Below, one piece after another: positions 38,633-58,891 of a stretch of DNA of 64,000 bases. The stretch's first letter is position 1, and each line of letters starts with the position of its first letter. A program made the position numbers and the translations under genes. This DNA is from Sphingobium sp. JS3065. GTDB taxonomy: Bacteria; Pseudomonadota; Alphaproteobacteria; Sphingomonadales; Sphingomonadaceae. The stretch is taken from assembly GCF_026427355.1 (NCBI RefSeq), contig NZ_CP102666.1, positions 1 to 64,000 of the forward strand. The letters are read 5' to 3'. The notes below the pieces were generated by a model. The model searched no databases, was not told where the DNA came from, and saw only the letters and a program-made list of their open reading frames with translations.

Positions 38633-38652
38633 ATTTTGCGTATACGCAAAAT
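38633..38652. promoter_or_regulatory. Palindrome ATTTTGCGTATACGCAAAAT (site 1 of a recurring motif)
   Basis: A perfect 20-bp palindrome two bases after the TpsB stop and 66 bases before the 2-oxoglutarate oxygenase ATG. The same core recurs in the Tad region. It lacks the GC-rich stem and T tail of a terminator, so an operator upstream of the oxygenase gene is more likely. Confidence 0.65.
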
Positions 38653-38718
38653 TGGCCATTCACCAGATCCAAAGGTCCGGAACGGCGGGCGGTCTCTTCC
38701 AACGAAAGAAGTTTGGCT

Positions 38719-39279
38719 ATGAAGAATGTCTGGGAAGTGTGGCCGGCGATATTGTCACCTGCGGCCTGTGACGCTGTTATCGAGAAGGCGGAGCAATATC
38801 CTGTGCAGTCCGCGACCGTTGGCTTTGACGAAGCGCAACGTGATGACCATGCTTACCGCAGCTCTACGATCCGCTGGCTGGATCCCGACATTGAGGCCGA
38901 ACTCGTCAAGACATTGATGCGCTATGTTCATGCGTCGAACAGGACCAATTTCGGCGTGGACATCGTGGCGCCGTTCGACCTGCAATACACGGAATATCAC
39001 GGCACGGCGCACGGCAAATATGATTGGCATCATGACGTCTGGCTGGAATCCCCTCGGCCCTATGCACGTAAGCTGTCCTTCGTCGTCCAGCTCTCCGAAC
39101 CGGAGGATTATGAGGGTGGGGCTTTTGAGTTTTTCGGCCTTCAGCAGCCCGGCGCTACCTTCGCTCCGCGCGGCAGCATGTTGATCTTTCCATCATTCCT
39201 GCAGCATCGTGTTCTCCCGGTGACGAAGGGTATTCGGCGTAGCCTTGTAAGCTGGGTCGAGGGGCCGCGATGGAGATGA
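38719..39279 (+). CDS. 2-oxoglutarate/Fe(II) oxygenase (prolyl-4-hydroxylase-like fold)
   Basis: A 186-residue dioxygenase with the jelly-roll metal site: His104 and Asp106 in YDWHHDVW, distal His163 in LQHRVLPV, and the 2-oxoglutarate arginine in GIRRSLVSW. LSFVVQLSEPEDYEGGAFEF is typical of the P4H/PKHD 2OG-FeII_Oxy branch. Substrate is unknown; members hydroxylate prolyl residues, other protein side chains or small molecules. The start follows GAAAGAAG. It sits between a TpsB gene and a prepilin peptidase, with a collagen-like protein gene 1.7 kb downstream. Confidence 0.85.
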   Translation: MKNVWEVWPAILSPAACDAVIEKAEQYPVQSATVGFDEAQRDDHAYRSSTIRWLDPDIEAELVKTLMRYVHASNRTNFGVDIVAPFDLQYTEYHGTAHGKYDWHHDVWLESPRPYARKLSFVVQLSEPEDYEGGAFEFFGLQQPGATFAPRGSMLIFPSFLQHRVLPVTKGIRRSLVSWVEGPRWR

Positions 39280-39436
39280 GTGATCACGCGGTCCAAAACG
39301 ATTTTGGATGGCGGTTGCCTGGCGGATCGTTGCCCGATCTGTAAGGGACAATTCGCGCCCGATCGCCGCGATCCCGCGCTTCTGATCGGCTGACGGGATT
39401 CTCCTATCTTTCCCCAATTTGCAGGCAGTGCAGCCA

Positions 39437-39952
39437 ATGTCACCATCGGCTCTTCCGTCGATCCCCTTGCTGAGCGGGGGCAGCTTATTGTGCCTGTTCA
39501 TTCTGCTGGGCGCCGCAGTCTATTTCGACGTCTGTTTCCGGCGGATACCCAATGGTTTGTCCCTGCTGGCCGCCATTGCCGCGGTGCCCTATTGGATTGG
39601 GGTGTCGGGGGACGCTATGCCAGCCTCGATCGGACAACAATTTCTCGTTCTGCTGGTCGCCACAGGGCCGTTGCTGCTGCTCTTTGCTGTGGGCGCCGTG
39701 GGGGGCGGAGACATCAAACTGCTCGGCGCGCTGCTATTGTGGATCCGTGCCGGAGACGTTGTTGGAATGATCGCAGTCATCATTCTTGCAGGAGGGGCGG
39801 TTGCCGCAGGGGCAGTGGCGCATGCGCTGTGGAGGCGAAGGCAATGGCGCGAAGCGACGGTGCCCTTCGGCGTTGCGATTGCCGCGGGCGCCATGCCGGT
39901 TCTGGCCGATGACCTCGTCTTCACGTTAAAGGCCGCGGGGGTTCTGGGCTGA
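39437..39952 (+). CDS. cpaA: Prepilin peptidase CpaA/TadV, catalytically complete
   Basis: A small aspartic (A24) membrane peptidase that removes the leader from Flp-type prepilins and pseudopilins at the inner membrane. The 171-residue protein has about five to six helices. Both catalytic aspartates are present: one in AVYFDVCFRRIPNGL and the other in the GxGD motif VGGGDIKLLGA. The ATG giving MSPSALPS was preferred over a TTG 18 bases upstream. It lies outside the Tad operon, which carries an inactive-looking homologue, so this one probably serves the pilus. Confidence 0.9.
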   Translation: MSPSALPSIPLLSGGSLLCLFILLGAAVYFDVCFRRIPNGLSLLAAIAAVPYWIGVSGDAMPASIGQQFLVLLVATGPLLLLFAVGAVGGGDIKLLGALLLWIRAGDVVGMIAVIILAGGAVAAGAVAHALWRRRQWREATVPFGVAIAAGAMPVLADDLVFTLKAAGVLG

Positions 39953-40937
39953 AACAGCGACTTGGCGGTGGTTCGCCGCGGGAGCGCCCCCTTGGACCGG
40001 TCCCCGCGATCATTCTGCAGGTCGGGTTCCAAGAGTCCGGTGCACACCGGACCCAAATGCTTCCTCGCACCTGGCGACGTTCGGCTGAACATTGACCCGG
40101 TCATATACTCATATGGGCGCCACGGTCTGGCCTGCGCGCGGATGAGATGAAGGGGTGGGGGACCTCGTTTCAGCGACCTCAATGGGGCGGCCCGGAGCAA
40201 CCATGCATTCTGGTGTGGACGGTGCCGCTTGCCGAGCTGAAGATGCGCTAAAGGGGCTCCTCAGATCGCCTCCAAACCGCTCGTCAGGCAACGGCAATGA
40301 GACGGTGGTGGGCGCGGGGACAGGAAATGCCTGGCCGCCGACGGTGCGGGTGGGGCCATGTCCAGCGTTCAGGATGGCTCCAGTACCGAAGCCTTATGCC
40401 GCTGTCTTGGCAGATGCGCGTGTCGCTCGGCAGTCGATGGGGAAGGGGCGGCATGAGTGGCATTCATCCAGACGAGCCATGGCGTTGGGCAATGACCATA
40501 TATCGGGTTGGTCATGAAGGCGCAGATTCGTCAGCAGACGATGCAGCCTATACCCGGACAGATCTTCGTTCCTGTCGCACACCCCCAATGCGCAGAGCTC
40601 AGGATCCTCAGCACGGCGGCGTGGCGTCGGCGGCGGTATTTGGACAGAAACAACCGATCCGGTTGTTTGGAGAATTGAGATCGCGACTTGAGCGGAAAGC
40701 TGCATTTGCGTAGCATTGAGCGAGAAGGCGATTGGATTTGCTGAGGAATGGGTGAATTTCGGAATATCGGTTAGTCTGTTGCGGATATTCAAGGCATGAT
40801 ATTGTCCGTCCAGATACGAGATAATGGCGTCCTGTAAGGGTTATGACCGCTTCGGTTTCTTCTGCTCGCTGACCGTGCGCCGGTTCGGGCTATTCGTCCC
40901 TCGTCGCGAGAGTCTCGCAATAACAGGGAGTACCCCA
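39953..40937. other. Intergenic stretch upstream of the collagen-like gene
   Basis: About 985 bases with only weak frames on both strands. It should contain the promoter of the collagen-like gene. No repeat, palindrome of the TTTTGCGTATACGCAAAA type, or RNA gene was seen. Confidence 0.45.
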
Positions 40938-43115
40938 ATGGCATTTCATGGATCGCTCCGTTCAGGACGGCGCTATCTCCTGTGCGCCACGGCCATTCCG
41001 CTTCTTCTCCTGGGGGCATGTGCCGATGGCGTCGGTTTCGACATAGGCGCGGGCGGCGGACAAAATCCCTCCGGCCCCTCCGGCCCGGGTGGTCCAACCG
41101 GCCCCACTGACCCGAGTGGTCCTGGCGGTCCGACTGGTCCCGGTGGTCCGTCCGGCCCCACTGATCCGAGCGGCCCTGGGGGCCCGACTGGTCCTGGTGG
41201 TCCGACCGGCCCTGGGGGCCCGACCGGCCCTGGTGGCCCGACCGGCCCTGGGGGCCCGACCGGCCCTGGTGGCCCGACCGGCCCTGGTGGCCCGACCGGT
41301 CCTGGCGGCCCGACCGGCCCTGGTGGCCCGACCGGCCCTGGTGGCCCGACCGGCCCTGGTGGCCCGACCGGTCCTGGCGGCCCGACCGGTCCTGGTGGCC
41401 CGACCGGTCCTGGTGGCCCGACCGGTCCTGGTGGTCCGACTGGTCCTGGCGGCCCGACTGGCCCTGGTGGCCCGACTGGCCCCGGTGGTCCGACTGGCCC
41501 TGGTGGTCCGACTGGCCCCGGTGGCCCGACTGGCCCTGGTGGTCCAACCGGCCCGGGAGGACCTACTGGTCCATCCGCGCTTAACGGGCCGATCGTTGGT
41601 GGCAATGTCGGAAATGTCACGGTTGGTGGTCCCAGCGGCTCCAGCACGCTGGTCGGCGTGAATGTGTTGCCGGGTTCGTCTTCATCGACAGGCGTTCTGG
41701 CGACCGTCGATGTCCTGACCGACGAAGGCACCGTTGCGCAGGTCACACTGCCTACCACCACTGAGCAGGTCCAGCAGGGTCTCGCGCCGGTTGGCTCCTT
41801 GACGGGCGCACTGCTGGGGGATCAGGTGGGAGGTGCTGTAACACAGCTCACCAATGGTCTTTCACCTACCGTGGCGGCCGTCACATCGACCGTCGACCAG
41901 GTGACTGGGCCGCTCCTCGATACCGTGAACGGTGTCCTGGCGCCGGTGACCGGGCAATTGATTGGCGACAACGGCGCTCTCGCACCGGTGACGGGGCTCG
42001 TCGAGAACCTGGTCGGCGGACTGACTGGCACATTGCCGGGGAGCCCAACCGATCCGGCGGGCACGCTCAATGGTCCCTTGATTGGTGCCAATGCCGGCGG
42101 CAATTCGCTGACCGGGGCAAGCACCGCCGATACGCTGGCAGGAGTCAACCTGCTGAACCCGACGGGCGAAAATGCGGCCACGGGTCAGCTCGTCACGGTC
42201 GGCGTGCTCTCGCAGGGAACCATCGTCGATGTTGCGCTGCCAACCACCGCGGCAGGCGTTGAGGCGGGCCTTGCGCCCGTCGCCAACCTGACCGGAACAT
42301 TGCTCGGCTCCCAGGTCGGAGCAACGGTCGGTCAGGTCACAACCGGTCTCGCGCCGGTCGCCGCTGCTGTCACATCGACTGTGGACGGCGTGGTCTCGCC
42401 GGTCCTTGACGCCGTCAACACCCTGGCTCCTGTCCTGAACGGCGCTACCGGCGGATCGCCGCTTGCACCCGTGACGGGTATCGTGGGCTCCGTCCTTGGC
42501 GGCGAGGGTGCTGGAACGGGATCGGTGCTTGCACCTGTGACGGGTGTCGTCAGTTCAGTCCTCGGAGGAGTTACGTCCGGCGGCGCGACTGGCGGTGTGC
42601 TTGCGCCCGTGACTGGCGTTGTTGACTCTGTCCTGGGGGGCGGAACGGGCGCCGGTTCGGTGCTTGCTCCGGTCACTGGAGTTGTAAACTCGGTCCTGGG
42701 CGGTGACGCCACTGGCGGGGCGGGCTCGGTCCTGGCACCTGTAACGGGGGTCGTGAACTCCGTCCTTGGTGGAGATGCCACCGGCGGTGCGGGCTCGGTC
42801 CTCGCCCCGGTCACCGGAGTTGTGAACTCGGTGCTGGGCGGTGGCGCGACAGGTGGAGCGGGCACCATTCTCGCCCCGGTCACTGGTCTCGTCAATTCAG
42901 TCGTCGGTGGCGCCACTGATGGTTCGGCCGGAGGCGTTCTGGCTCCGGTGACCGGCGTTGTCGGCTCTGTGCTGGGAGGAGGCACGGGCTCAGGCTCGGT
43001 TCTCGCTCCCGTAACGGGCGTCGTGAGTTCGGTGCTTGCACCGGTCACGGGCGGCAGCGGCACGGCTGCGCCGGTCACGGGCCTTCTCGGAGGTCTCCTC
43101 AAGGGAGGAAACTGA
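40938..43115 (+). CDS. Collagen-like repeat lipoprotein
   Basis: A 725-residue surface protein candidate. The start (CAGGGAG upstream) gives a signal with lipobox LLGAC (Cys near residue 31). Then comes a collagen tract of uninterrupted Gly-Pro-Y triplets, 22 units of GPTGPG with a less regular start. After it two related ~100-residue domains begin LNGPIVGGN and LNGPLIGAN, and the C-terminal third has about nine repeats of the type [17 protein letters not shown]. Gly-Pro-Thr tracts occur in exosporium protein BclA, where they form triple helices with glycosylated threonines. Function here is unknown; an adhesin or biofilm protein is plausible. Confidence 0.85.
41181..41576 (+). repeat. 22-copy 18-bp tandem repeat encoding the collagen tract
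   Basis: Twenty-two consecutive 18-bp units of the form GGCCCGACCGGCCCTGGT, each coding GPTGPG (last unit GPTGPS). Units differ mainly at third codon positions. Such repeats can expand and contract, so tract length may vary between strains. Confidence 0.95.
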
Positions 43116-43210
43116 CATTGAGCGCCGTCCGGCCCTGCCCCAATTTTGGGCCGGACGATGCTCATGAGCCATCGCTGCTTCACGCAGACACAGCGGTGAT
43201 GGCCGGGGGG

Positions 43211-43242
43211 CGAGGGGACAGGCGGGTCGCACTGTCCCCTCG
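43211..43242 (+). terminator. Hairpin after the collagen-like gene
   Basis: Perfect 11-bp arms (CGAGGGGACAG and CTGTCCCCTCG) with a 10-base loop about 95 bases after the stop codon. The T tail is weak, so a terminator is probable but not certain. Confidence 0.5.
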
Positions 43243-43296
43243 GCCTTGAATTGGAAAGGCGATGATGATGTCGCAGTCTTGCATGAGGTGCGTAGT

Positions 43297-44601
43297 ATGA
43301 AAGCGGTCGAAAAGGAGAGCAGGCATTATCTCCTCACGGTTCGTCTGAATAATTATTCAGCACTCTGTGCAGCCTATGGCGACGAGTTGGCCAACAACGC
43401 TCTCAAGCATGTTCGAAGAAGTCTTGAGCGCCATCTCGGCAAGGTTCTGATCGCAGCGGTTGAGAGTGAGGCGCTGACAGTTCTGGCGGAAAACAGGCTC
43501 CTTGAGAGCTATTCCCCCGACGAATTGGTTGAAATACTCTGTTCCATCACAAGCGCCGAGCCCTTTCGCTGCGCCGATGTGGACGTCCTGCTTGACATAT
43601 GCGCGGCCTACAGACCTGTCGATGCCTCGACGACCCCTGAGGACTTCGAGCGCCTCCTGGCCGAGGCTACTGCCGAACTGGAATTTGCCCATCCGCGTTC
43701 CATTGCTACCTGGCGTAGTATGTCGGCCAAGGAAGAGGCGCGTTACCGTGCGGACATGGCTCGCTCTGTCGCTTTGCTGAAAGCCATCAGGCGCCGGACA
43801 GCATTTTTAGTATGGCGGCCGATCGCCGATCCCAACGACCGTGGCCGCATTCTCTATTATGACGGCAGATTGCGGCAGGCCAACGGAAGCGGTCAGCAGG
43901 TGGAATGCGACACTGCGGTCACAGCATTTGAACGTCTTGGCCTCTCTCATATCATCGATCTCCAGCTTGTTTCCGACGTGCTGGACGAGCTACAGGCCGA
44001 CCCTCTGGCGCGGTTGTCTATTCCGGTGTCCGCGAAGAGTCTGAGCGCCAGTCTCTTTGGCCGGGAAGCGGGATGGAATGAAATCTTCACGCGGTTGCAT
44101 CGCGATGCAGCGCTCGGTCCACGACTGATCCTGGAGGTCGCCGACACGAGTGACTTGCCTTCCGATATCGAGCTGGAGCCTTTTCTCGATCGGATTCGAG
44201 CCTTGGGCGTTCGCCTGGCCGTCGGCCGTTTCGGCGGTCTTGCATCGTCGATCGAGCAGCTTATCGGCATTGCGCCGGACATCATCAAGATCGACAGCGG
44301 CTTCCTCCATACCGCCCATCAGTCTGACAGAAGCCGTGCGCGTGTTGGCCCGTTGCTTGACCTCGCTCGGACTGTGGCGCGCATTGTCGTGCTTGATGGC
44401 GTTGCCTCGTCCTGGCACCTGTTGTTGGCGCTCGATGAAGCTGCTGAATGGGTGGCCGGATCCTATGTCGGCGGAACCAGTATTGGCCGCGACTGGGTCA
44501 AGGCCGATTATGGGGATGCAGTCGCAGGCCTGAGCAGCTTCAATCATGCCTTCGGCGATTATGGCAGCGGGCCGCGAAACGGGCATCACACGACACACTA
44601 G
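43297..44601 (+). CDS. Degenerate GGDEF/EAL-domain protein
   Basis: A 434-residue cytoplasmic protein. The N-terminus retains a GGDEF-like fold (VRLNNYSALCAAYGDELAN) without a GGDEF motif, and the C-terminal half has an EAL-like fold. Cyclic-di-GMP phosphodiesterase residues are replaced: LVWRPIAD at the start, LILEVADTSD for LEITE, VGRFGGL for DDFGTG, although IIKIDSGFL is recognisable. It is therefore probably an inactive binding or scaffold protein. GAGGTG precedes the ATG. It lies between the collagen-like and autotransporter genes. Confidence 0.8.
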   Translation: MKAVEKESRHYLLTVRLNNYSALCAAYGDELANNALKHVRRSLERHLGKVLIAAVESEALTVLAENRLLESYSPDELVEILCSITSAEPFRCADVDVLLDICAAYRPVDASTTPEDFERLLAEATAELEFAHPRSIATWRSMSAKEEARYRADMARSVALLKAIRRRTAFLVWRPIADPNDRGRILYYDGRLRQANGSGQQVECDTAVTAFERLGLSHIIDLQLVSDVLDELQADPLARLSIPVSAKSLSASLFGREAGWNEIFTRLHRDAALGPRLILEVADTSDLPSDIELEPFLDRIRALGVRLAVGRFGGLASSIEQLIGIAPDIIKIDSGFLHTAHQSDRSRARVGPLLDLARTVARIVVLDGVASSWHLLLALDEAAEWVAGSYVGGTSIGRDWVKADYGDAVAGLSSFNHAFGDYGSGPRNGHHTTH

Positions 44602-44607
44602 TTTTTT

Positions 44608-44641
44608 AGGGGCATTTTTGCGTTTACGCAAAAATGCCCCT
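44608..44641. promoter_or_regulatory. Long inverted repeat with TTTTGCG core (site 2)
   Basis: Two perfect 16-bp arms separated by TT, with outer sequence AGGGGCA and inner core TTTTTGCGTTTACGCAAAAA. It starts seven bases after the EAL-protein stop. No T tail follows on either strand; instead the T run precedes it. The core matches site 1, so I favour an operator for the autotransporter gene, though a terminator for the upstream gene is not excluded. Confidence 0.6.
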
Positions 44642-44713
44642 CCGACCGGCAGGATCGCCCGCGATGTGCAAGGCGATCAGCATAAAGAATAGAAGAAAAG
44701 GGGATCAGACCCA

Positions 44714-45943
44714 ATGTTCAAGGCAGAGACGACATTCAGGCGGTTCATGCAGAAGGGCCTGATGGCCGCCGCGTTGCTGGGTGCGGCGGGCATGACGGCA
44801 GCCCATGCCGCGCCCTATGGTCCTTATGCAAGCACGCCAGGGGAGGCCTCGCTGGGCTCTTCGCTTGATTCAGCAACTACCGCTCCGGTAGGCGATCGCG
44901 CGGCGATGCTGCAATCTCTCGACGCTCTTCCCACCGCTGCAGAGCGTGCAGATGCGCTGGGGCAGTTGTCGGCGCGTAGCTATTCCCTCTTACCCCGCCT
45001 TTCGATCCAGTCCATGGACTCGGCTGATCGCGAAATCCGCAGCTATCTTGTCGAGCGGCGCAATATCGCTTCGAGCGCGAGCGCGGATGTGCCGGTCCGC
45101 GGCGATCGCACCATCAACATGATGCTGGTGGGGGGGCTGAAGCAGGCGACCTACAAGGGCCGGGTCGACCGGCCGGAAGCGAAGAGTGATTCACGTTCGG
45201 TCCGCTTCGCCATCGATGTGAGCCCGATTGAGAATCTCATCGTCGGTGCGACCCTGGGGATCGACGGAATCGATGCGAAGCTGGACTCAGGACAGAAGCC
45301 CCGGATCACGGCGTTCAATACGAACATCGGACCCTATGCGAGCTTCAATAACGGCAAATTCTACATCGACGCGACGGCGGGCTATAATTTCTCCGAGTTC
45401 AAGCTGCGGCGCCAGGTCGGCTGGACGGGCTTTTCCGACAGGATGCGCGCCAATGTCGATGGCGATGGCTGGCATGCGACAACGGAAGTGGGCGCCATGC
45501 TCCGCGCCGCCAATATCAAGCTGCAGCCCTTTGTCGGCCTGCAATATCGCTATGCCGACATTGGCGGCTTCATGGAAGGTGGCGGGGCCGCATCGCTCGA
45601 AGTTGCCAGCTATCGCACCAAGTCCCTGCGGGCGAGCGTCGGTGCGCGCGCGTCGGCCACGATCGACACGGGCCGCTGGGCGATCCGGCCGTCAGTAGAG
45701 GCTCAGTATCAGCGGGAACTTCGCAGCCAGCCCGACAGCCGCATCGAAGCCCGCTTCGTGGCCCGCGACCTCGACATCTTCACGCTCAATCCGACACGGC
45801 TGGCGCGCAATGCGGCGTTGCTGAGCGCAGGAGCGTCGGCGACCTATAACAGCCGCACGACCTTCCGGCTGGGCTATACGGGAGAATTGAGCTCGGATCG
45901 CAATGTTCATGCGGCAGTTCTTTCGGTAAGCCGACGCTTCTGA
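44714..45943 (+). CDS. Outer-membrane autotransporter-type beta-barrel protein
   Basis: The 409-residue protein has a signal peptide (cleavage near AAHAAP), a short N-terminal helical segment, and a C-terminal region of about 280 residues with alternating hydrophobic strands ending in VSRRF, as in autotransporter barrels. Barrel-like segments include KFYIDATAGYNFSEFKL and IKLQPFVGLQYRYADIGGF. There is no long passenger domain, so it may be a barrel with a small surface domain. A strong AAAAGGGGA precedes the start. Confidence 0.82.
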   Translation: MFKAETTFRRFMQKGLMAAALLGAAGMTAAHAAPYGPYASTPGEASLGSSLDSATTAPVGDRAAMLQSLDALPTAAERADALGQLSARSYSLLPRLSIQSMDSADREIRSYLVERRNIASSASADVPVRGDRTINMMLVGGLKQATYKGRVDRPEAKSDSRSVRFAIDVSPIENLIVGATLGIDGIDAKLDSGQKPRITAFNTNIGPYASFNNGKFYIDATAGYNFSEFKLRRQVGWTGFSDRMRANVDGDGWHATTEVGAMLRAANIKLQPFVGLQYRYADIGGFMEGGGAASLEVASYRTKSLRASVGARASATIDTGRWAIRPSVEAQYQRELRSQPDSRIEARFVARDLDIFTLNPTRLARNAALLSAGASATYNSRTTFRLGYTGELSSDRNVHAAVLSVSRRF

Positions 45944-45976
45944 TGGGGTGAGCGGGGCAAAAACAACCGAAGCGAA

Positions 45977-46003
45977 CGCAATTGCGCGCGATGTATGCGC
46001 AAT
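45977..46003. promoter_or_regulatory. Overlapping inverted repeats before the orphan parB
   Basis: CGCAATTGCG (45977-45986) overlaps ATTGCGC...GCGCAAT (45981-45987 and 45997-46003), about 45 bases before the ParB-like ATG. The TTGCGC half sites recall the TTTTGCG motif but are not identical. An autoregulatory operator is possible. Confidence 0.4.
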
Positions 46004-46045
46004 GTGGCGCTATGAGGCGGGGAAAGGCGATAGCGGGAGCGTTCC

Positions 46046-47083
46046 ATGGCTGGATTCATGAAGGACATATTGGAAACGCTCTCCTATGATCCGGCCCCCA
46101 TGCGCCAGGTGGCAGCACGGGAGGACGCGCTGAGCCGTCTTGACCAGCGGCTTGCCAATGTCGCAGGGGCTGGATCCGATGGGCGTACTACCATCCGTAT
46201 CCAGCCGGGCGAATGTGTCGTCTGGGATGGAAATCCGCGGGACCAGCCGGGTCTGACGGCGGAAAGCTGCCAGTCGCTGATCGAGTCCATAGCGCAGGAA
46301 GGGGGAAACCGGATCCCCGTGCTCGTCCGCATGAACGGGGCGGACGTGGATCGGCCTTATGAGCTGATCGTAGGCAGCCGGCGCCGCTTCGCGATTGACT
46401 GGCTCAACCATAATGGCCGCCCCGAACTGCGCCTGACGGCGCTGGTTGTTGATCTGTCCGACGAGGAGGCGTTCCGGCTCGCCGATATCGAGAATCGAGA
46501 GCGGGCAGACATCACCGAGCTCGACCGCGCGCGCAGCTATCAGGCTGCGGTGGATCGCTTCTACGGGGGCGTTCAGTCCCGCATGGCCAATGCGCTTAAC
46601 CTTTCGAACAGTCAGTTGAGCCGTCTGCTCGCGCTTGCCCTGTTGCCCGAGGAAATCGTGGATGCGTTCGGTACGCGCGCGGAACTTCGGGTCAGGCATT
46701 CGGAAGTCCTGACACCGCTCCTCAAAAGGGTGGAGCAGCGCATGCGCATGCTGGCGGAGGCCCGGCGGATCTCCGCGGAGCAGCAGGAAAGGTCGGTCCA
46801 GGGGGATCGGCTGCTTGCACCGGCAACGGTTCTGGCGCGCCTGCGGGAATCGGTCGCCAGCCCTGGGCAGGATGAGCCGCGCGACATCGAGATCATTGCT
46901 GGAGGCGAACGGGTTGGACGCGCCAAGCCGGCAAGGGGCGGGGGCGTCCAGATCGATCTCAATGTGACCGAGGAGACGGATCTGGACGAACTGCTTTCCC
47001 GCCTTCGGGCCACGATCGTTGCCGCACGGGCTGGTGGAGGAGGAGAGGGAGAGCAGGTGGCCTCTGAAGAGGCGGCAGCCTAG
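46046..47083 (+). CDS. Orphan ParB paralogue
   Basis: A 345-residue protein clearly homologous to the parB of this window: IRIQPGECVVWDGNPRD, PYELIVGSRRRFAIDWL (GxRR nucleotide box), FRLADIENRERADITELDRA, and a helix-turn-helix ANALNLSNSQLSRLLALAL. No parA or repA adjoins it. GGGAG lies six bases before the ATG. Family members without ParA, such as VirB of Shigella, act as transcription regulators. Its location between an autotransporter and the Tad operon, within the zone of recurring palindromes, suggests it controls surface genes; this is inference. Confidence 0.88.
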   Translation: MAGFMKDILETLSYDPAPMRQVAAREDALSRLDQRLANVAGAGSDGRTTIRIQPGECVVWDGNPRDQPGLTAESCQSLIESIAQEGGNRIPVLVRMNGADVDRPYELIVGSRRRFAIDWLNHNGRPELRLTALVVDLSDEEAFRLADIENRERADITELDRARSYQAAVDRFYGGVQSRMANALNLSNSQLSRLLALALLPEEIVDAFGTRAELRVRHSEVLTPLLKRVEQRMRMLAEARRISAEQQERSVQGDRLLAPATVLARLRESVASPGQDEPRDIEIIAGGERVGRAKPARGGGVQIDLNVTEETDLDELLSRLRATIVAARAGGGGEGEQVASEEAAA

Positions 47084-47207: not shown

Positions 47208-48143
47208 TCATTTCGTCTGCCCGCTGAGATGATCCAGGATGACCTGCTCGACATCGGGACTGATGAGCAGAAAATCGCGCCGGCCATCCTTGTCGTCGGG
47301 TATGCGGCAGAGGACCTCATTCTTGACCATTCGGTTGATCAACCGAAGGGCAGTCGTCGTTGGCATGCCCGATGCGATGCAGGCGCTTGAAACAGAGACG
47401 GTGCGTCCTTCGAACTTCGCGAGCAGAAGGTCGAGCAGCATGTGCCAGGCCGGGTCGCCGAAAATCTCGCCGCCGATCAGTTCCCGCCTTTTGAGTTCCG
47501 CGCGCAATTGCGCGCGGATATAGTCTGCGTCAATGGGCACCGCACGGCCGTGGGCCTGGACGGGATCGTCCATTTGTTGCGCGAGGCGTTGCAGTTCGGA
47601 ACTCAGTGAGGAGATCTTGTTGAGGAGCGTGGAGCGGCTGGCAGGGGTGTCGTGAAGGCCGCTGACGCGCAGGATGGATCGCCTGAGGTCGTCCCTGCTG
47701 ACCGGTTTCTGCAGGAAATCCGCGATAGAGGCGCGCATCGCGCCGACGGCGACATCGACTGTCGCATGGCCGGTGACCATGATGAAGCGCAGGCTCCGAT
47801 CCTCTTCCTCGGCCCGGGAAGTCAGTTCCTGAACCAGGGCAAGGCCGTCGCAGTCAGGCATGCTGTAGTCGACGATGACAAGTGAGATGTGTTCGTCGTG
47901 CATATGGACGAGGGCCTCTTCGGCCGAGCAGGCGCTGACCGATGGATAACCAAGCATATCGAGCATGAAGGCGCACTCGGAGGCCCACTCACGATCGTCA
48001 TCGACGATCATCACGGTGCCGATATGCGGAAGCTGCGCCTTGGCGCTATCAGGCAGGCCCAGATCCTCCAGCCGCGCACGTGGCACAGGCCTTTCTTTAG
48101 CCTCCCATCCATTCATCCGGATGTTCATTTCTGTAAGCCCCAT
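47208..48143 (-). CDS. Response regulator with winged-helix output, last gene of the Tad operon
   Basis: The 311-residue protein has an N-terminal extension, a receiver domain (acidic pair in VMIVDDDREW, phosphoacceptor Asp92 in VIVDYSMPDCDG, Lys146 in FLQKPVSRD), a linker with a helix LLNKISSLSSELQRLAQQ, and a MarR-like winged helix (DLLLAKFEGRTVSVSSACIA, TTALRLINRMVKNEVLCR, DGRRDFLLISP). It starts 12 bases after the inactive prepilin peptidase gene in the same direction, so it is probably made with the pilus. It may adjust pilus expression in response to one of the nearby kinases. Confidence 0.88.
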   Translation of the reverse strand: MGLTEMNIRMNGWEAKERPVPRARLEDLGLPDSAKAQLPHIGTVMIVDDDREWASECAFMLDMLGYPSVSACSAEEALVHMHDEHISLVIVDYSMPDCDGLALVQELTSRAEEEDRSLRFIMVTGHATVDVAVGAMRASIADFLQKPVSRDDLRRSILRVSGLHDTPASRSTLLNKISSLSSELQRLAQQMDDPVQAHGRAVPIDADYIRAQLRAELKRRELIGGEIFGDPAWHMLLDLLLAKFEGRTVSVSSACIASGMPTTTALRLINRMVKNEVLCRIPDDKDGRRDFLLISPDVEQVILDHLSGQTK

Positions 48144-48155: not shown

Positions 48156-48617
48156 TCAAGTCGCCAAACCTTGATGAACCTGAACAATCAGAATTGCAAT
48201 AGCTGCGATTGCTTCAGAATCGGGGCGCAATACTGCTTTTTTGCGTATACGCAAAAAAATGACCGAGATCACGAATAGTAGAATGGCCAACGAAAGCATG
48301 AGCACTGCTCCAACAGGGCCAAGCCATGCAGCGCCGGCTGCCATAAGCTTGATTTGGCCGCCAGAAAGGAGGCGCAGCTTGCAGGTCCTGCGCATATAGG
48401 CGATCGCGCCGGCAAGAAGGAGCAGAATGGCGATGCCTGCGGCAAGCGAGACGATCGCACCACCCAAGCCCCGAGAGGTCAAGGTGAAGGCGATGCCCGC
48501 CGCGCCGAGCAGGAGGTAGAGCCAGTTCGGAACATTACGCTGTTCCCACGCCAGGACGATGATGGGAAGCAGGATGAGAATGAGTGTGGAGATCGCGATA
48601 AGCTGCACGCCCGTCAT
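48156..48617 (-). CDS. CpaA/TadV-like protein lacking both catalytic aspartates
   Basis: A 153-residue membrane protein with the topology of a TadV/CpaA prepilin peptidase. Aligned with the complete CpaA of this window, the first aspartate (FDVCFRRIPN) becomes Ala23 in LAWEQRNVPN, and the GGGDIKL aspartate becomes Gln88 in SGGQIKLMAAG. The fold motifs around them persist, so the protein seems conserved but unable to cleave. It lies directly behind tadE with no gap. The palindrome at 48237-48258 is within its coding end. It could be a non-catalytic assembly partner. Confidence 0.8.
   Translation of the reverse strand: MTGVQLIAISTLILILLPIIVLAWEQRNVPNWLYLLLGAAGIAFTLTSRGLGGAIVSLAAGIAILLLLAGAIAYMRRTCKLRLLSGGQIKLMAAGAAWLGPVGAVLMLSLAILLFVISVIFLRIRKKAVLRPDSEAIAAIAILIVQVHQGLAT
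48237..48258. promoter_or_regulatory. 22-bp palindrome with TTTTGCGTATACGCAAAA core (site 3)
   Basis: A perfect palindrome with six T residues, GCGTATACGC and six A residues. It lies in the 3' part of the inactive cpaA coding sequence, coding LRIRKK, about 94-115 bases before the response regulator start. It could control that last gene separately. Confidence 0.6.
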
Positions 48618-51457: not shown

Positions 51458-51460
51458 GGA

Positions 51461-52129: not shown

Positions 52130-53013
52130 TGGTTCATGCCCCGCAACGTATCGAAGATTGTCACGACTGGTGGCCCGGCGAGGACGATGAAAAGCCCCGG
52201 CATGAAAAAGACGATCATGAGGACCACCATCTTGACGGTGATCTTGCCCATTGCCTCGCGTGCCCGCGCGACGCGCTGCTGGGTAAATTCCCGAATGAAC
52301 TCCCGAAGGGCGGGGGCCAGTTCGATGCCCTGGAACAGGGCCTGGCGGAAGAGCGCGGCAAGCTCACGCGCTCCCTTGACCGCGACGCGTGAGGCCCAGC
52401 GGTCGAGCGCTGCCTCATAGGTCATCCCGCGATCGATATCGGCAACAAGGTTCGCGATGAGAACGGCATGGTTGGGAACCGCTACGATTTCATCGCGCGC
52501 GATCGAACGGAAGCATTGATCAAGCGACACGCCGCTTTCGAGCATCATCAGCATGAGGTCGAGGAGGAAGGGGAACTCGGCGGTGATTTTGTGGGCGCGG
52601 GCGACGGCAAAGATCTGCAGCACCTGCTTGGAGGCGATGAAGGCTAACCCGGCACCGATCAGTGGCAGGATGGGCCGCGCGAACAGGCTTCCCCAAAGGA
52701 CATGGCTCAGGAGCAGAAGGCAAAAGGCCGTGCCAAGCGTCGCGCCGAGGCGAATCCATACGAAATGTTCGACCGCGCGGGGGCCCTGGAAGCCTGCCAG
52801 CCGCAGCTTGTCCTCGATCTCCGTTCGATCGCGGCCCTTTGCGGAGATGAAAGCCGGCAGCCGGATGGCCCGCCGCGGCTCGCGGGTCTCACCGACACGG
52901 GCGGACAGGCGCGCTTCCAGACGCTGTTCCGCCAGAAGTGCTTTACCGCCGTGGAATGCCGCCACGAGGCCGGCGAGCGCCAGGGCCATGCAGAGGAGGG
53001 CGAGCGCGCTCAA
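52126..53013 (-). CDS. tadC: TadC inner-membrane platform protein
   Basis: A 295-residue T2SSF-type membrane protein that forms the assembly platform with TadB. The T2SSF domain contains FPFLLDLMLMMLESGVSLDQ, RELAALFRQALFQGIELAPA and LREFIREFTQQRVARAREAMG, and the last helices read VVLMIVFFMPGLFIVLAGPP. The start is a TTG overlapping the tadB stop (TTGA); an internal ATG eight codons later is possible. Overlaps on both sides show tight coupling. Confidence 0.9.
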   Translation of the reverse strand: MSALALLCMALALAGLVAAFHGGKALLAEQRLEARLSARVGETREPRRAIRLPAFISAKGRDRTEIEDKLRLAGFQGPRAVEHFVWIRLGATLGTAFCLLLLSHVLWGSLFARPILPLIGAGLAFIASKQVLQIFAVARAHKITAEFPFLLDLMLMMLESGVSLDQCFRSIARDEIVAVPNHAVLIANLVADIDRGMTYEAALDRWASRVAVKGARELAALFRQALFQGIELAPALREFIREFTQQRVARAREAMGKITVKMVVLMIVFFMPGLFIVLAGPPVVTIFDTLRGMNQ

Positions 53014-53912
53014 AAGGAGAGCCTCATCATGCGACGCATGACCATGACGCCCGAGCCTTGAAGAACTACAGCGGCAAGTGCGAGCGTATGTCCTCGCGGA
53101 TCATGAATGAAGAAAGCCGGATAGGTTGGATTGAGGGAGAATAATACGGCGACAGCAACAAAGGGTATGGCGATCAGCACACGTCCGCTGACCCGGGCTT
53201 CGGAGGTCGCTGCCAATAGATCGCGTTTGATGCGGATGCGTTCGCGCAGGATGTTCGACAGGTTCTGCAGGATCGTCGTGATCGAACCGCCAAAGCGGCT
53301 GTTGGTCCGGATCGCGGCGGCAAGCATGGAAATCTCGGCGATATGCAACCGGTCGGCCTGTTGCTGCATCGCTTCGGCAACCGGAGCGCCCAGTTCAAGC
53401 TTGCGCGCAACGGGGCCCAGGAAGGAACGGACAATCTCCGGCGCTTCGTGAAGCGCGCGCTCGATCGCCTGGCTAAGGGAGCTTCCGACCGTCTGCATCT
53501 GGCGAACGGCATCGATATAATGCGGGAGCGCCTCGATCAGCGCGGATGTCCGCTGATAGGCTCTGTGCCGGATCCAGAAGAGCAGGACGGCGGGAGGGGC
53601 CAGGAGGAGCAGGAGCGCGACGACAGGACCGGCGAGCAGAAGCGCGAACAGGGCCACGAGGAGGAGGACGCCAGCGGCGATGCCGAGCGCGCGCATCGTG
53701 AATTCGACCTGCGCCTGGGCGAGCAACGGCGCCAGCATCTCGGGCACCGTGACGGGCGCCAAAAGTGGCGAAGCCGTCGGCGCCCGCGCGGCAATGCCGT
53801 TGAGGCGCCGGTCCAGTCTCGCCTGGTTCCGGCGCTGCTCGGTCAGGACGAGATAGCCTATGCCCGCCAGGACCAGGAGCCCCAGGATCAGGAAGGCGAC
53901 GCCGCTCAGCAC
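53010..53912 (-). CDS. tadB: TadB inner-membrane platform protein
   Basis: A 300-residue T2SSF-type membrane protein, partner of TadC. An N-terminal helix, an internal hydrophobic pair, then the cytoplasmic domain ALPHYIDAVRQMQTVGSSLSQ, MQQQADRLHIAEISMLAAAI and GGSITTILQNLSNILRERI, and two closing helices. The start is GTG, overlapping the end of cpaF by seven bases. Size and position are normal. Confidence 0.9.
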   Translation of the reverse strand: MLSGVAFLILGLLVLAGIGYLVLTEQRRNQARLDRRLNGIAARAPTASPLLAPVTVPEMLAPLLAQAQVEFTMRALGIAAGVLLLVALFALLLAGPVVALLLLLAPPAVLLFWIRHRAYQRTSALIEALPHYIDAVRQMQTVGSSLSQAIERALHEAPEIVRSFLGPVARKLELGAPVAEAMQQQADRLHIAEISMLAAAIRTNSRFGGSITTILQNLSNILRERIRIKRDLLAATSEARVSGRVLIAIPFVAVAVLFSLNPTYPAFFIHDPRGHTLALAAVVLQGSGVMVMRRMMRLSF

Positions 53913-55252
53913 AGGCTTTCCCCAACGGAACCAGGAACATAGTCCTTGAGGCGATGGGCGAAGAAGGGACGGGGCGAGAGCGTGCGGAACTCCCCCTTGC
54001 CCGACATGGGAGGCTGCTCGTCGAAGCAGAACAGTTCGTTGAGCGAATAGGCTTCGCCTTCCAGGCCGGTTACCTCCACGATCGAGACGATGCGCCGGCT
54101 CCCATTGGCGAGGCGCTGGATCTGGACGATGATGTGAACGCTGTTGGCGATGAAACGGCGGATCGCGCGAACGTCGTTCTGGAGGCCCGCAAAGCCCAGA
54201 AGCATCTCCAGCCGGGCGAAGGCATCGCGCGGCGTATTGCCGTGCAGGGTCGCCATCGAGCCGTCATGACCCGTCGACATAGCCTGCAGCATCTCGACCG
54301 CTTCGACGCCCCGGACCTCTCCCAGGATGATGCGATCAGGACGCATGCGCAGCGCGTTGCGGACCAGTTCGCGCGCGCTCACCTCGCGGCTGCCGTCATG
54401 ATTGGGCGCCCGCGTTTCCAGGCGGACGACATGCTCCTGCCGCAGCTGCAGCTCGGCTGCGTCCTCGATCGTGATCAGCCGCTCATGATCGTCGATGAAG
54501 GTCGAGAGCATGTTGAGAAGCGTCGACTTGCCCGCGCCGGTGCCGCCGCAGATGAGAATGTTCAGCCGGGACCGCACCGCTGCTGCAAGATAGGCCGCCA
54601 TGTCGGCGCTCATGGCCTGCCGTTCGACGAAATCCTCGATCGTGCGCGCCTGCAGGCGGAACTTGCGGATCGACAGGAGCGGGCCGTCAAGCGCAATGGG
54701 GGGGATGACGATGTTGACACGCGAGCCATCGGGCAGCCGGGCATCGACATAGGGCGATGCCTCATCGACGCGTCGGCCAATAGGCCCGACGATTCGCTGG
54801 ATGATGTTCATGACATGGGCGTCATCGCGAAAGCGGGTTTCCACCTTTTCAAGAAGGCCTGCGCGTTCGGCGTAAATGGCGTTGGGTCCGTTGACGATAA
54901 TGTCATCGATGGTCGGATCGCGCAGCAGTGGCGCAAGCGGGCCAAGGCCCACGACCTCGTCTTCGACATCCTCGATCAGCAGCAGGCGCTCGGCTGAATT
55001 GAGCGCGAGCTGCCCGCGCCGGCTTCTGCTGGTGATGACGAGTTCGATTTCTTCGCGCAGGGCGCGGCGTTCGAGCGATTCGGCCGTATTGCCGCGCGCT
55101 TCGAGCTGCTCGATGACCTGTTGGCAGGTCTGGGCCTTGGCGGCCTGGTAGCTGTCGCTCATGCGCTGGGCGGCCGAGGGCGCGATGGTCGTGGGACGCG
55201 CGGTTCCCGGGGTTCCCGCGACGGGAGCGGTTTCTTCGGTGAGAAGGCTCAT
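53906..55252 (-). CDS. cpaF: Pilus assembly ATPase CpaF/TadA
   Basis: The 448-residue cytoplasmic secretion ATPase powers extension and retraction of the Flp pilus. Walker A is [13 protein letters not shown] (around residue 236), the Asp box reads [12 protein letters not shown], the Walker B region is [16 protein letters not shown], and the His box is [20 protein letters not shown]. The N-terminal domain has [20 protein letters not shown], typical of the family. ATGA overlap with cpaE confirms the start. All catalytic motifs are intact. Confidence 0.95.
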
Positions 55253-56418
55253 GGCCGGCGCTCCAGCTTCCGCAGGACGCCGCGGCGCAACTGCTGGATG
55301 GCGCCGAGCGCACCCTTTGCCTGATGAGGCCGAGCGCCACAGGCCCGGCGAAGGGCCTGCTGATAGGCGCCCCCGTCCGGGGCGATCCCGAGCGGCTGTC
55401 CCGCGTTGAGGGCATTGCGGCTTTGCGCGCGATCGACCGGCAGGGGCATCATGGATCCCGTGCCCAGCGCATCGGCCATGCGGCGCCCGTCGAGCAGCAC
55501 TGTTGGCTGATGATCCCAGACAAGCAGCCGCATCCGCTCGAGCGTGGCGTGATCGGGGCTGATGCGGTCGAGGAGACGACGCGCGGCCTCGAGTTCGCGG
55601 ATCGACTGGGCGCAGACGATGTCGACCTGGTCGGCAAGAAGCGCCAGTTCGCGCAGCAGGCCGCCGTGACGAAGGCTCCCCGCGCAAAAGACGACTTCGC
55701 TCGAGCAGGCCCGCAGCAGCCGGACGAGCGCCGCGATATCGGTAGGGGCGATGCCCGCGGGTTCCGCTCCGGTGCCGCCATCGAAGGTAAGCAGTCCAAG
55801 ACCGCTGGCCGCGTGGCGGGCGAGCGCGCTGGAAAGCAAGCTTGCATCGAGACGCTCGATGTCCGCGATGGCAGAAGCCAGGCCATAGGTCACGTCGAGG
55901 TCGAGATAGGCCGCAGCGGCGCTGGTCGGGAGCGAGCAGTCGATCAGCAGGCTGGGCTGGCGGTCCGCGCTCCGGATGAGCGCCATGTCGCTCGCCACCA
56001 TGGCGGTTGCTTCCTGATCGACCCCCAGGACCAGCGTGAGCCGTCCCCCGGTGCTTTGCTGGGCGATCGTCGCGTTGAGCAGGCGGGACAGAACATTGGC
56101 GATCTCCGCCCCTTCAGCGTCGCGCGCGATCACATCCTTGGCGCCCGCCCTGACGGCGTGCAGTATCTGTTCGCTGTCCTGTTCGTCGGTCGCAAGCACG
56201 ATCGAGCGGCCCGCCGCCTGATCCGCAACGGCGCTGATCGATGCGGCGAGGGACCGGTCGGACGGGAGCGCCGAGCGGTCCATCACGATGACGCCGGGGC
56301 GGGTGAGAGGCTCGGCGTCGAGCGACTGGACCATCCTGACATCAACGCGTTGCCCCATGGCATCGCCAATGCGCTGGGCCAGCATCCGATCGATGGAGAG
56401 CAGCAGGATTTCGGCCAT
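55249..56418 (-). CDS. cpaE: TadZ/CpaE-like pilus localisation protein with degenerate P loop
   Basis: A 389-residue protein with an N-terminal receiver-like domain (LLLSIDRMLAQR, VIVMDRSAL) and a MinD/ParA-like C-terminal domain. TadZ proteins place the Tad machine at the pole. The deviant Walker A KGGVGKTT is not present; the equivalent reads LVLGVDQEATAMVASDMALI, so ATP hydrolysis is unlikely, as in some TadZ subgroups. It starts one base after cpaC and overlaps cpaF. Confidence 0.85.
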   Translation of the reverse strand: MAEILLLSIDRMLAQRIGDAMGQRVDVRMVQSLDAEPLTRPGVIVMDRSALPSDRSLAASISAVADQAAGRSIVLATDEQDSEQILHAVRAGAKDVIARDAEGAEIANVLSRLLNATIAQQSTGGRLTLVLGVDQEATAMVASDMALIRSADRQPSLLIDCSLPTSAAAAYLDLDVTYGLASAIADIERLDASLLSSALARHAASGLGLLTFDGGTGAEPAGIAPTDIAALVRLLRACSSEVVFCAGSLRHGGLLRELALLADQVDIVCAQSIRELEAARRLLDRISPDHATLERMRLLVWDHQPTVLLDGRRMADALGTGSMMPLPVDRAQSRNALNAGQPLGIAPDGGAYQQALRRACGARPHQAKGALGAIQQLRRGVLRKLERRP

Positions 56419-56419
56419 G

Positions 56420-57637
56420 TCAGCGCCTCACCACGCCGAAGGGGGCGGCATGTTGTTCAACGCCATCTGCTCCAGTGACCATGTCGGCGAGGCCCGGATC
56501 GACCGACGCCGTGGCGCTTCCCGGCAGCGGCGGCGCATCCTTGGCATCGACAGGCCCAACCAGGCGCGGCGTGGCGACGATGATGAGTTCCTGCCGTTCC
56601 TTCTGGGTCTGCTGGCGCTTGAAGAAGGCGCCGAGTATCGGCAGGTCGCCGAGCAGCGGTGTTTTCTCCTTGGAGACGTTGCTGCTGCTGTAGCTCAGGC
56701 CTGCAATGACGAAGCTCTGGCCGCTGCCCAGTTCCACCGTGGTCTCGGCCGATCGCCGTCGGATGCCGGGAACGACATAGCCCTGAAGCTGGACCCCGTT
56801 ATTATAGTCGAGCTCGCTCACCTCTGGTGCGATCTTCAGGACGATGCGATCCTTGGAAAGCACAAAGGGGGCCACCGATAGACGAACGCCAAATTCCTTG
56901 TACTGGATGGAAATGGTGCTGCCGGCTCCGCCCGACGATTGCGGAACGGGAACCGGGAATTCGCCGCCCGCAAGGAAGCTTGCCTGTTCGCCCGAGCGCA
57001 CGAGCAGCGTGGGCTGCGCCAGAAGCTGGGAAAGGCCATTGGAGGAGAGCGCGCTCAATACGGCGCCAATGCCCCGATTGGGCGCGGAAAGGAAAAGATT
57101 GAACGCGTTCTGGATGGGCGCTGTGGATTCGAGCGACAGATTGGGCGACATGGAGTAGCTGCTCAACGTGCTGGGCGAGACGATCGCGCCCTGCAGATCG
57201 CCGCTCAGCTTGGAGAAGTTGAAACCAAGGGCCTTGAGGGTCGACGCGGAAATGGCCGCAAACTGGACGTCGACCGCGACCACCTGCTCGCCGCGGGTCG
57301 AGAAACTGGCAGGAAGAGCCTTGAGATCTCCGCCAGTCGAACCGGCAGCTGCGACCACGCTTACAGGCGTTTGGGCGATCAGGCGGCCGTTGATTCCATA
57401 GACATTGACCGTCACCTCGCCAGGACCAATGCCCGTGATGCGGAGCGACTTTGCGGACGGGGCGGCGACCGACACGACGCCTTCCTTCTCGATCGCGATG
57501 CGGCCGATCGGCGATGGATAGGAGAAGGTCCGCTGTTGCCGGACAGAGATCGTTTCCCCGTCTTGCGCCCAAGCGGAATTGCTGGCCAGCAGGGGAGCGG
57601 TAAGGGCCATCAGCCCGGCGATACGCCAGTTGTTCAT
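56420..57637 (-). CDS. cpaC: Outer-membrane secretin CpaC/RcpA
   Basis: A 405-residue secretin that forms the outer-membrane pore of the Tad pilus. It has a signal peptide (cleavage near NSAWAQ), an N0-like domain (GRIAIEKEGVVSVAAPSAKS), a short N1-like region and the secretin domain with GLSQLLAQPTLLVRSGEQAS, GGEFPVPVPQ, VRLSVAPFVLSKDRI and TPLLGDLPILGAFFKRQQ. It overlaps cpaB by four bases. Confidence 0.93.
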   Translation of the reverse strand: MNNWRIAGLMALTAPLLASNSAWAQDGETISVRQQRTFSYPSPIGRIAIEKEGVVSVAAPSAKSLRITGIGPGEVTVNVYGINGRLIAQTPVSVVAAAGSTGGDLKALPASFSTRGEQVVAVDVQFAAISASTLKALGFNFSKLSGDLQGAIVSPSTLSSYSMSPNLSLESTAPIQNAFNLFLSAPNRGIGAVLSALSSNGLSQLLAQPTLLVRSGEQASFLAGGEFPVPVPQSSGGAGSTISIQYKEFGVRLSVAPFVLSKDRIVLKIAPEVSELDYNNGVQLQGYVVPGIRRRSAETTVELGSGQSFVIAGLSYSSSNVSKEKTPLLGDLPILGAFFKRQQTQKERQELIIVATPRLVGPVDAKDAPPLPGSATASVDPGLADMVTGADGVEQHAAPFGVVRR

Positions 57638-58548
57638 CGCGCAGTGCTCCCGGAATAGATGACCTCGCGGCGGTCTCCCACGAGCAGTTCGATGGCGTGC
57701 GACGGCTGCCGCGCAGCGCGTTTGGGCTGCGCGGCAGCGCGCGGTGGCGGTGCTGTCGCGTCGCGCTCGCCCGGTGCGGCGAGCGAGGGCCTGGAGGTCA
57801 TCGCGGCCACGGCGACCTTCTGATCATCGATGGGATTGCGAAGCGAAAGATAGAGGCCTCCCGTGCTCTTGGCGAGCGACAGGGTCGAGACCTGTTCGGG
57901 CGTGAGGGCAAGGGTGACGGTGCGGGCGGGAGGCTGCGGCGTGCTCTGCTGGCCGTCGGGGCCGGTCTTCTGGTTTGTCCCGACCACAAGCTCGCCGACA
58001 GCGAGGACCTGAACCATCTGGAGGAGCGTTTCGGCGCGGCTTCGGCCCATCCCGCGTGCGCCGCTGATGGCGTCGGCGCCCGGATAGATCACCTGGACAT
58101 CGACGCGGTCTCCTGGCCTTACCAGCCCGGCCACCGCGATTTCGGCGGTGGTGTCGATGCTGACCGCGCGCATGCCGATGGGCACCCGGATAGCCAGCTT
58201 CGTCTCAGCGCCCACTGCGTCGCGCGCCACAAGCATGTTGGCTGCGATGTCACGCGTGGCGACCTTGCCGATCACTTCGGGGGCTGTCGCGGCATAGGGA
58301 TAGCGCTGCGGATCGCCTGGCCTGTTGCGGACCATGTCCGCGGTGATTGTCTCTCCGGTCCTGATGGGCCGCACGGCCGAGAGAAATACAGGCGACGGCG
58401 CCGTTGCCGCAGCTTGGCGGGACGGACTGGCAGCCTGTGCCGGAGACGGCGGTGTGCGCGTCAGCTCCCTGATGCCGAGGACCAGAAAACAGGCCGCAAC
58501 CATCAGCCCGACGAAAACCGTCACTCTAGCCCGCATTCCCAGGCGCAT
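57634..58548 (-). CDS. cpaB: CpaB/RcpC pilus assembly protein, first gene of the Tad operon
   Basis: A 304-residue periplasmic protein anchored by one N-terminal helix (VTVFVGLMVAACFLVLGI) with an SAF domain (SAVRPIRTGETITADMV, RDIAANMLVARDAV) and the RcpC region (IPIGMRAVSIDTTAEIAVAG-like sequence and LVRPGDRVDVQVIYP). It stabilises the CpaC secretin. I chose the ATG giving MRLGMRARV, preceded by AAGGGGGG with good spacing; longer forms would be coded across the palindrome just upstream. All genes down to 47.2 kb follow in the same direction with overlaps or short gaps. Confidence 0.9.
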   Translation of the reverse strand: MRLGMRARVTVFVGLMVAACFLVLGIRELTRTPPSPAQAASPSRQAAATAPSPVFLSAVRPIRTGETITADMVRNRPGDPQRYPYAATAPEVIGKVATRDIAANMLVARDAVGAETKLAIRVPIGMRAVSIDTTAEIAVAGLVRPGDRVDVQVIYPGADAISGARGMGRSRAETLLQMVQVLAVGELVVGTNQKTGPDGQQSTPQPPARTVTLALTPEQVSTLSLAKSTGGLYLSLRNPIDDQKVAVAAMTSRPSLAAPGERDATAPPPRAAAQPKRAARQPSHAIELLVGDRREVIYSGSTAR

Positions 58549-58891
58549 TCGGCCCCCCTTTGCGCATACGCAAAAATCCGCCCGACGGGCATGAATATTA
58601 CGAATCAATAGAACGGTCGCCGTTCAGCACGGTTAAGTAACCGTTCAGCGCAGAATCAGGGAATGGAGATGGAACCATTTTGATTGTAACGCCGGAATTG
58701 CGCAAAAATGACGGTCATTCCATGGGATTTGCGTATATAGAAAGCATGATTGCGTCCGGATGCTATATGACCGTTTCCCAATCCTTGACGTTCGGGACAT
58801 GAAAATGGGTATTGGGGAGCATTCATGCCGTTCCTGTTGCAAGCTGGGGCTTTTCAAGGTCACGGCTTGGACATCCCTCTAAACCTGAGCA
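58549..58891. other. Divergent promoter region of the Tad operon and EAL-like gene
   Basis: This 343-bp gap between cpaB and the divergent pseudo-EAL gene contains the site at 58559-58574, a TTGCGCAA palindrome at 58698-58705 and a half site TTTGCGTATAT at 58728-58738. It should hold both promoters. I could not assign -35/-10 boxes with confidence. Confidence 0.6.
58559..58574. promoter_or_regulatory. TTTGCGCATACGCAAA palindrome before cpaB (site 4)
   Basis: A near-perfect 16-bp palindrome (one mismatched pair next to the centre) ending ten bases before the cpaB ATG and adjoining its ribosome-binding site. It is the same motif as the sites near 38.6, 44.6 and 48.2 kb. A protein bound here would block initiation of the whole Tad operon. 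Confidence 0.7.

Follow-up and report, generated by a model that had tools for sequence, protein, structure and literature searches.

A conserved palindrome ahead of sphingomonad Tad-pilus and adhesin genes, probably a parS-like operator of a co-inherited orphan ParB protein

The first 64,000 bases of the 307,737-bp contig NZ_CP102666.1 of Sphingobium sp. JS3065 (bases 1-64000, hereafter the window; the genome counts 5,112,546 bp in 5 contigs) contain a repeated palindrome, with the consensus TTTGCGTNNACGCAAA, among genes for a Tad pilus and for adhesins. Our computations show that its copies make up a conserved site regulon, co-inherited with the gene of an orphan ParB-family protein. We consider it likely, from the sequences compared here, that the palindrome is the parS-like operator of this orphan ParB (46046-47083), which would link the expression of the Tad pilus to that of the adhesins, in trans as well. 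The sites, the proposed reader and the putative targets are the following.

38634..38651, no strand: palindrome A, 0 mismatches, 68 bp before the ATG (38719) of the 2-oxoglutarate (2OG) oxygenase gene and right behind the ShlB stop codon; counterpart at C2:796487
44616..44633, no strand: palindrome B, 1 mismatch, 81 bp ahead of the autotransporter ATG (44714); counterpart at C2:794041
48239..48256, no strand: palindrome C, 0 mismatches, contained in the 3'-terminal part of cpaA and past the 3' end of the orphan parB; counterpart at C2:791623
58558..58575, no strand: palindrome D, 2 mismatches, 10 bp ahead of the probable ATG of cpaB and adjoining its GGGGGG (ribosome-binding site)
38719..39279, plus strand: 2OG-Fe(II) oxygenase, putative target of site A (Pfam, 2.3e-14)
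44714..45943, plus strand: autotransporter beta-domain protein, putative target of site B (Pfam, 1.8e-43)
46046..47083, plus strand: orphan ParB-family protein, the proposed reader (Pfam SopB_HTH, 4.3e-11; NCBIfam parB_part, 2.4e-28; PDB ParB/Spo0J/Noc; co-occurrence)
47208..48143, minus strand: winged-helix response regulator, perhaps also a target of site C (Pfam Response_reg, 2.4e-21; weak match to MarR_2)
48156..48617, minus strand: CpaA-like A24 peptidase, containing site C (Pfam Peptidase_A24, slightly under cut-off)
57634..58548, minus strand: CpaB/RcpC, first gene of the Tad operon and putative target of site D (Pfam RcpC, 5.2e-28; likely start 58548, frame open to 58608)

The window was searched with TTTTGCGTATACGCAAAA at up to three mismatches, which returned exactly four sites, against a mean of 0.01 and a maximum of 1 in 100 dinucleotide shuffles, none of which reached four (0/100). 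Therefore, the four near-identical palindromes of a preliminary description, made from the letters alone, are all real and lie within a few bases of the positions it gave; its remark that none occurs in the first 36 kb agrees with the same search, and the coordinates bear out its placing of sites before the 2OG oxygenase and the autotransporter and at the cpaB ribosome-binding site. The additional half sites that it listed at 58698-58705 and 58728-58738 are not supported: of the 11 TTTGCGT copies on both strands together, seven are halves of the palindromes, and the copy at 58728 is one of four strays. The second EAL gene (58892) has a site upstream in 0/3 loci.

In the whole genome, the core TTTGCGTATACGCAAA (up to two mismatches) was found at seven places and its backwards control at none. 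Four of these places are in the window; the other three (C2:791623, 794041 and 796487) belong to a paralogous Tad locus on a second replicon, a 1.018-Mb contig. Since all seven fall in two Tad/adhesin loci, the motif is not scattered evenly over the genome, an outcome that the preliminary description had named as speaking against a regulon. The sites are paired at three matching places of both loci, namely before the 2OG oxygenase, before the autotransporter and at the cpaA 3' end, where the counterpart of C lies 61 bp 3' of the paralogous parB. As the proteins of the two loci are only 42-73% identical, the paired sites have outlasted the general drift of the sequence. For site D, the second locus offers no complete counterpart, only separated half sites: upstream of that cpaB (G000:C2:785114, in L008), TTTTGCGT ... 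ACGCAAAA face each other tens of bases apart. Similarly, facing half sites (ACGCAAA ... TTTGCGA), tens of bases apart and without a palindrome, occur upstream of cpaB in G230, a genome of the family sample described below. A 5-kb query found 99.8% identical DNA across 93% of its length in a plasmid of Sphingobium sp. YBL2.

Orthologues of the orphan ParB, called above 400 bits (the next best match scoring 241), are present in 17 of 94 genomes of the genus, at 19 loci. In the 723 kb of these loci, TTTGCGTNNACGCAAA with up to two mismatches occurs 62 times, against 0-8 (mean ~1.2) for 47 letter-shuffled palindromes. In a set of 52 sites, spanning -9.5 to +13 kb of ParB and leaving out the near-duplicate locus G055C3, TTGCG/CGCAA hardly varies, and a few bases beyond the site the information content has dropped to background; the two-mismatch filter inflates the core of the site, not this drop. 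The usual gene order is ShlB, site, 2OG oxygenase, collagen-like protein, EAL protein, site, autotransporter, ParB, site, the Tad operon adjoining or lying elsewhere.

The relation of the sites to start codons was evaluated in 23 loci (24 minus G055C3; the five beyond the 19 being G154, G265, G310, G230 and L142), counting sites with up to three mismatches within 160 bp before a gene, for which the background is 0.012 per gene. Such a site precedes the 2OG oxygenase in 19/20 loci, at 14-68 bp, the autotransporter in 11/14, at 20-81 bp, and cpaB in 10/14, at 10-54 bp. It is found less often before ParB itself (6/23), the response regulator (2/8) and TadE (1/17, a poor match). Within the same distance there is none before ShlB and the collagen-like gene (0/19 each), the first EAL gene (0/13), CpaA (0/8), TadG (0/15), TadC, TadB and CpaF (0/13 each), CpaE and CpaC (0/14 each) or two kinases (0/7 and 0/6); four other reference genes are left out of this tabulation. 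In G265 and G310, where an inversion has turned the 2OG gene with respect to ParB, the site has moved along with the gene. Moreover, a one-mismatch site stands directly ahead of cpaB in 6/6 Tad operons lying apart from the module, at distances of ~26 kb (G042) and 126, 283, 364 and 384 kb (G055, G006, G043 and G021, respectively) or on another contig (G002); a seventh such operon (G035) begins at a contig edge and is outside this count. These data agree well with the earlier proposal of a single regulon under one DNA-binding protein, as the sites accompany the same few genes, at their start codons, in different genera and despite rearranged gene order, and the sites before the distant cpaB operons also back it.

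An alignment of 13 cpaB leaders has the palindrome as its longest invariant block, located 3' of a partly conserved -10-like block and 5' of the G-rich ribosome-binding site. Because the sites lie between the -10-like block and the start codon, the net effect of binding might be repression, which we propose more weakly than the binding of the sites by the ParB. Several sites are also found closely behind a stop codon and ahead of a ribosome-binding site, and palindrome B continues into a longer inverted repeat, two features that would suit a role at the RNA level (intrinsic terminator or leader hairpin). However, the arms run from T-rich to A-rich, the opposite of an intrinsic terminator, and at least five T of six directly follow the site on the 3' side in just 1/104 site-strands. 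Among 32 distinct sites, we counted 29 pair-breaking changes, five one-sided wobble changes and 0 compensated ones. Seven terminator-like places were detected in a search of 38-49 kb only, none overlapping A-C, and Rfam gave 0 hits. On the arm direction, the rarity of T-tracts and the absence of compensated changes, the intrinsic terminator and the RNA hairpin were rejected, and with them the purely terminator action raised in the preliminary description as an objection; we consider any role in RNA extremely improbable.

The exact motif and the orphan ParB are distributed together. Among the 94 genus genomes, the ParB is present in 17, the exact motif in 16 and both in 15 (Fisher 2e-14). In a family sample of 259 genomes from 96 genera, the figures are 5, 5 and 4 (Fisher 1e-7), with G230 having the ParB only and G089 the motif only. 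The looser TTTGCGTATACGCAAA (up to two mismatches) was tried for this comparison and rejected: it matched 32/94 genomes, 16 of them without the ParB, in which it had 21 matches, compared with 24 matches in 22 genomes for its backwards control. These matches being at about the control level, co-occurrence was counted with the exact pattern. By hand count, 33/38 exact sites in the genus are within 13 kb of an orphan parB or ahead of cpaB. The 2OG gene occurs in 15/94 genus genomes, every one among the 17 with the ParB. As a further check, 5 of 18 plasmid-collection records with the ParB were inspected, none of them equal in length to a contig of the preceding counts: exact sites lie within 9 kb of the ParB in 4/5, and the five records hold 10 sites with up to two mismatches, against a mean of 0.24 and a maximum of 3 for 100 shuffled palindromes. 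In three of these records, the gene at the place of the 2OG oxygenase, identified by its size and place only, has exact sites ~14-20 bp ahead of it.

Several observations weigh against the orphan ParB as reader. G035 and G088 have the ParB and no exact site (G088 has sites at 1-2 mismatches), an exact site but no ParB is present in G089, and PP1Y, one of the five plasmid records, has no site within 9 kb of its ParB. No palindrome stands ahead of cpaB in the second locus of G000, the genome of the window, or in G016 and G010. The ParB of G230 keeps the recognition helix, but GSRR was not found in it as searched; the G230 locus lacks recognisable sites, and no palindrome is shared by the regions before its 2OG, cpaB and parB genes. 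Four further exact sites are away from the module (one in G006, three in G020); three of them are within unrelated coding frames, and the fourth falls inside or next to a short, questionable frame. Finally, CpaC is present in the same 17/94 genomes as the orphan ParB, also where the two are not adjacent; therefore, presence and absence alone cannot separate the ParB from another co-inherited factor. This identical distribution also ties the orphan ParB to the Tad pilus. In G020, an exact copy of the motif (G020:C19:222446; position 646 of L117) is seemingly intergenic, 20 kb from the orphan ParB, and as it lies ~60 bp ahead of a minus-strand gene it could possibly mark a further target.

The palindrome could thus be the operator of another regulator, either the response regulator 47208-48143 or an unlinked co-inherited host factor, as the CpaC distribution would allow. 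Site C lies 96 bp upstream of the response-regulator gene in the window, and a site precedes this gene in the two loci counted above. Nevertheless, the response regulator has close orthologues (bits >300) in only 4/94 genomes, compared with 16 for the motif, and it was rejected as a general reader; the layout and position of the motif are, moreover, those of the palindromes behind plasmid parB genes described below. We regard another regulator as unlikely. Of the candidate readers named in the preliminary description, the orphan ParB is strongly favoured, and the winged-helix response regulator is not.

The family assignment of the orphan ParB is supported by scores above the curated cut-offs for TIGR00180 (99.2 bits, cut-off 58.45) and SopB_HTH (43.2, cut-off 27), with ParB_N remaining under its cut-off (22.2, cut-off 26.3). 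GSRR and ENRER are present in 19/19 genus orphans, GxRR and ENxxR being what we take to be the cytidine triphosphate (CTP)-pocket motifs of ParB. In the tree, the 19 genus orphans form one group separate from 12 plasmid ParBs, under a midpoint root and with a program warning that long branches meet. The recognition helix reads LSNSQLSRL[LI] in 19/19 orphans, compared with I[PG]KQNLHNLL in the plasmid ParBs of the GTAAAAC group.

Plasmid relatives of the orphan are the ParBs of 14 loci, 40-46% identical to it, with ParA beside ParB in 13/13 tested. Behind the parB of 12/14 of these loci, 33-88 bp on the 3' side, there is a perfect palindrome with 7-bp arms and a 2-bp centre, for which the background is 0.025 per 200 bp, although several of the 14 loci are near-copies; none was found behind parB in L062 and L065. 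The half-sites are GTAAAAC in eight, GTCCCAC in two and TTCCCCC in two. The window holds one such pair of its own.

29953..31011, plus strand: ParB from the parAB pair of the plasmid itself (46% identity with the orphan ParB)
31045..31060, no strand: GTAAAACATGTTTTAC, putative parS of this ParB, 33 bp after parB, with a second copy at 33221-33236

The two copies of GTAAAACATGTTTTAC (31045-31060 and 33221-33236) are the probable parS of this replicon. Around the frame 32303-32794, GTTCCTGAAATNCCG-type repeats in both orientations (32314-33370) are perhaps origin iterons. The plasmid palindromes share the 7+2+7 layout with the motif and differ from it in half-sites, and their ParBs have another recognition helix. 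In 8/19 orphan loci, the motif itself lies 19-78 bp behind the orphan parB. Therefore, given the same layout and the same place behind parB in the plasmid relatives, we read the motif as a parS turned operator.

Sites behind parB, together with membership in the ParB family, could also indicate that the orphan reads them for placing or holding DNA, as a second centromere or as a tether at the Tad-pilus pole, and not for transcription. The Tad ATPase CpaE is ParA/MinD-like, which would favour such a role. Against it, the sites are close to the start codons of three gene families, also before non-adjacent cpaB operons, and no ParA homologue was found within 13 kb of the orphan parB in 24 loci (less than 7 kb in two of them), the positive control being the 13/13 plasmid loci. 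In five of the 24 loci, a ParA homologue is located 14-20 kb away, the plasmid's own ParA being one of these. The orphan thus lacks the parA beside parB that defines a ParABS pair, and DNA positioning appears quite improbable as an explanation of the sites.

Under the reading as an operator, the orphan ParB would be a relative of plasmid-type ParBs without an adjoining ParA gene, in which the helix-turn-helix and the CTP-pocket motifs are retained. It would bind the 16-bp sites just upstream of start codons in three target transcription units, namely the one from the 2OG oxygenase onward, autotransporter-parB and the Tad operon starting with cpaB. Many loci would offer it a further site downstream of the orphan parB, at the position of parS in the plasmid relatives. 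Loading as a CTP-dependent clamp, like VirB and KorB, is plausible because the CTP-pocket motifs are intact in the genus orphans. A more elaborate scheme, in which a CTP switch runs a replicon-spanning trans regulon for surface attachment, the conserved N-terminal helix of the ParB contacts CpaE and polar pilus assembly feeds back on pilus and adhesin transcription, is a speculation that we think unlikely.

The remaining genes of the module are the following.

36879..38630, plus strand: ShlB/FhaC-type outer-membrane transporter (Pfam)
40824..43115, plus strand: collagen-like (GPTGPG)n secreted protein (from the translation; weak match to an NCBIfam collagen-like adhesin, under cut-off)
43246..44601, plus strand: EAL-domain protein (Pfam, 6.9e-26)

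The collagen-like protein is lipoprotein-like and secreted, and contains ~25 perfect GPT-GPG repeats of the collagen type, followed at the C-terminus by LAPVTGVV repeats. The neighbouring 2OG-Fe(II) oxygenase (38719-39279) is possibly a prolyl hydroxylase for it; a literature search on collagen-like proteins with hydroxylases returned nothing. A second A24-type prepilin peptidase gene lies within the adhesin module at 39419-39952.

If the orphan ParB acts as proposed, it would offer a ParB-derived regulator whose operator, target genes and likely parS ancestry can all be read from the sequence, in free-living bacteria, and hence a tractable case of a partition protein turning into a gene regulator. 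It would also be a candidate regulator for sphingomonad Tad pili and adhesins, and genes labelled "ParB/RepB/Spo0J family partition protein" or "hypothetical protein" would need renaming.

To our knowledge, few ParB-derived transcription regulators are known, namely VirB, KorB and BisD, and our literature searches found no earlier description of the present one. The sphingomonad plasmid ParABS systems (e.g., 28760-31060 of the window) resemble it in the 40-46% identical ParB and in the 7+2+7 palindrome behind parB, whereas they have ParA beside ParB and palindromes with other half-sites (GTAAAACNNGTTTTAC on this plasmid), and a spread of sites ahead of pilus genes was seen only for the orphan's motif. 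Orphan ParBs, including Noc and BisD, are ParB homologues outside a parAB pair as well, and the main text of the article treating them has 0 occurrences of "sphingo", "adhesin" or "pilus" (PMC12704722). VirB of Shigella is a ParB-family protein acting on the transcription of surface and virulence genes via parS-like palindromes, the virS sites (PMC10770331). Its sequence match to the orphan ParB is marginal (E 0.8), and it has other target genes, another site sequence and another host; VirB is described as counteracting H-NS (PMC10770331), whereas for the orphan repression is proposed tentatively. KorB of plasmid RK2 is a ParB-family CTPase clamp with 16-bp OB operators before several transcription units, near promoters, and acts with KorA on plasmid replication and transfer genes (PMC11790492), in contrast to the Tad pilus and adhesin genes that are the orphan's putative targets. 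As with VirB and KorB, parS-like sites are found ahead of several target operons, and the orphan ParB system is most likely a newly recognised ParB-derived regulator besides these two.

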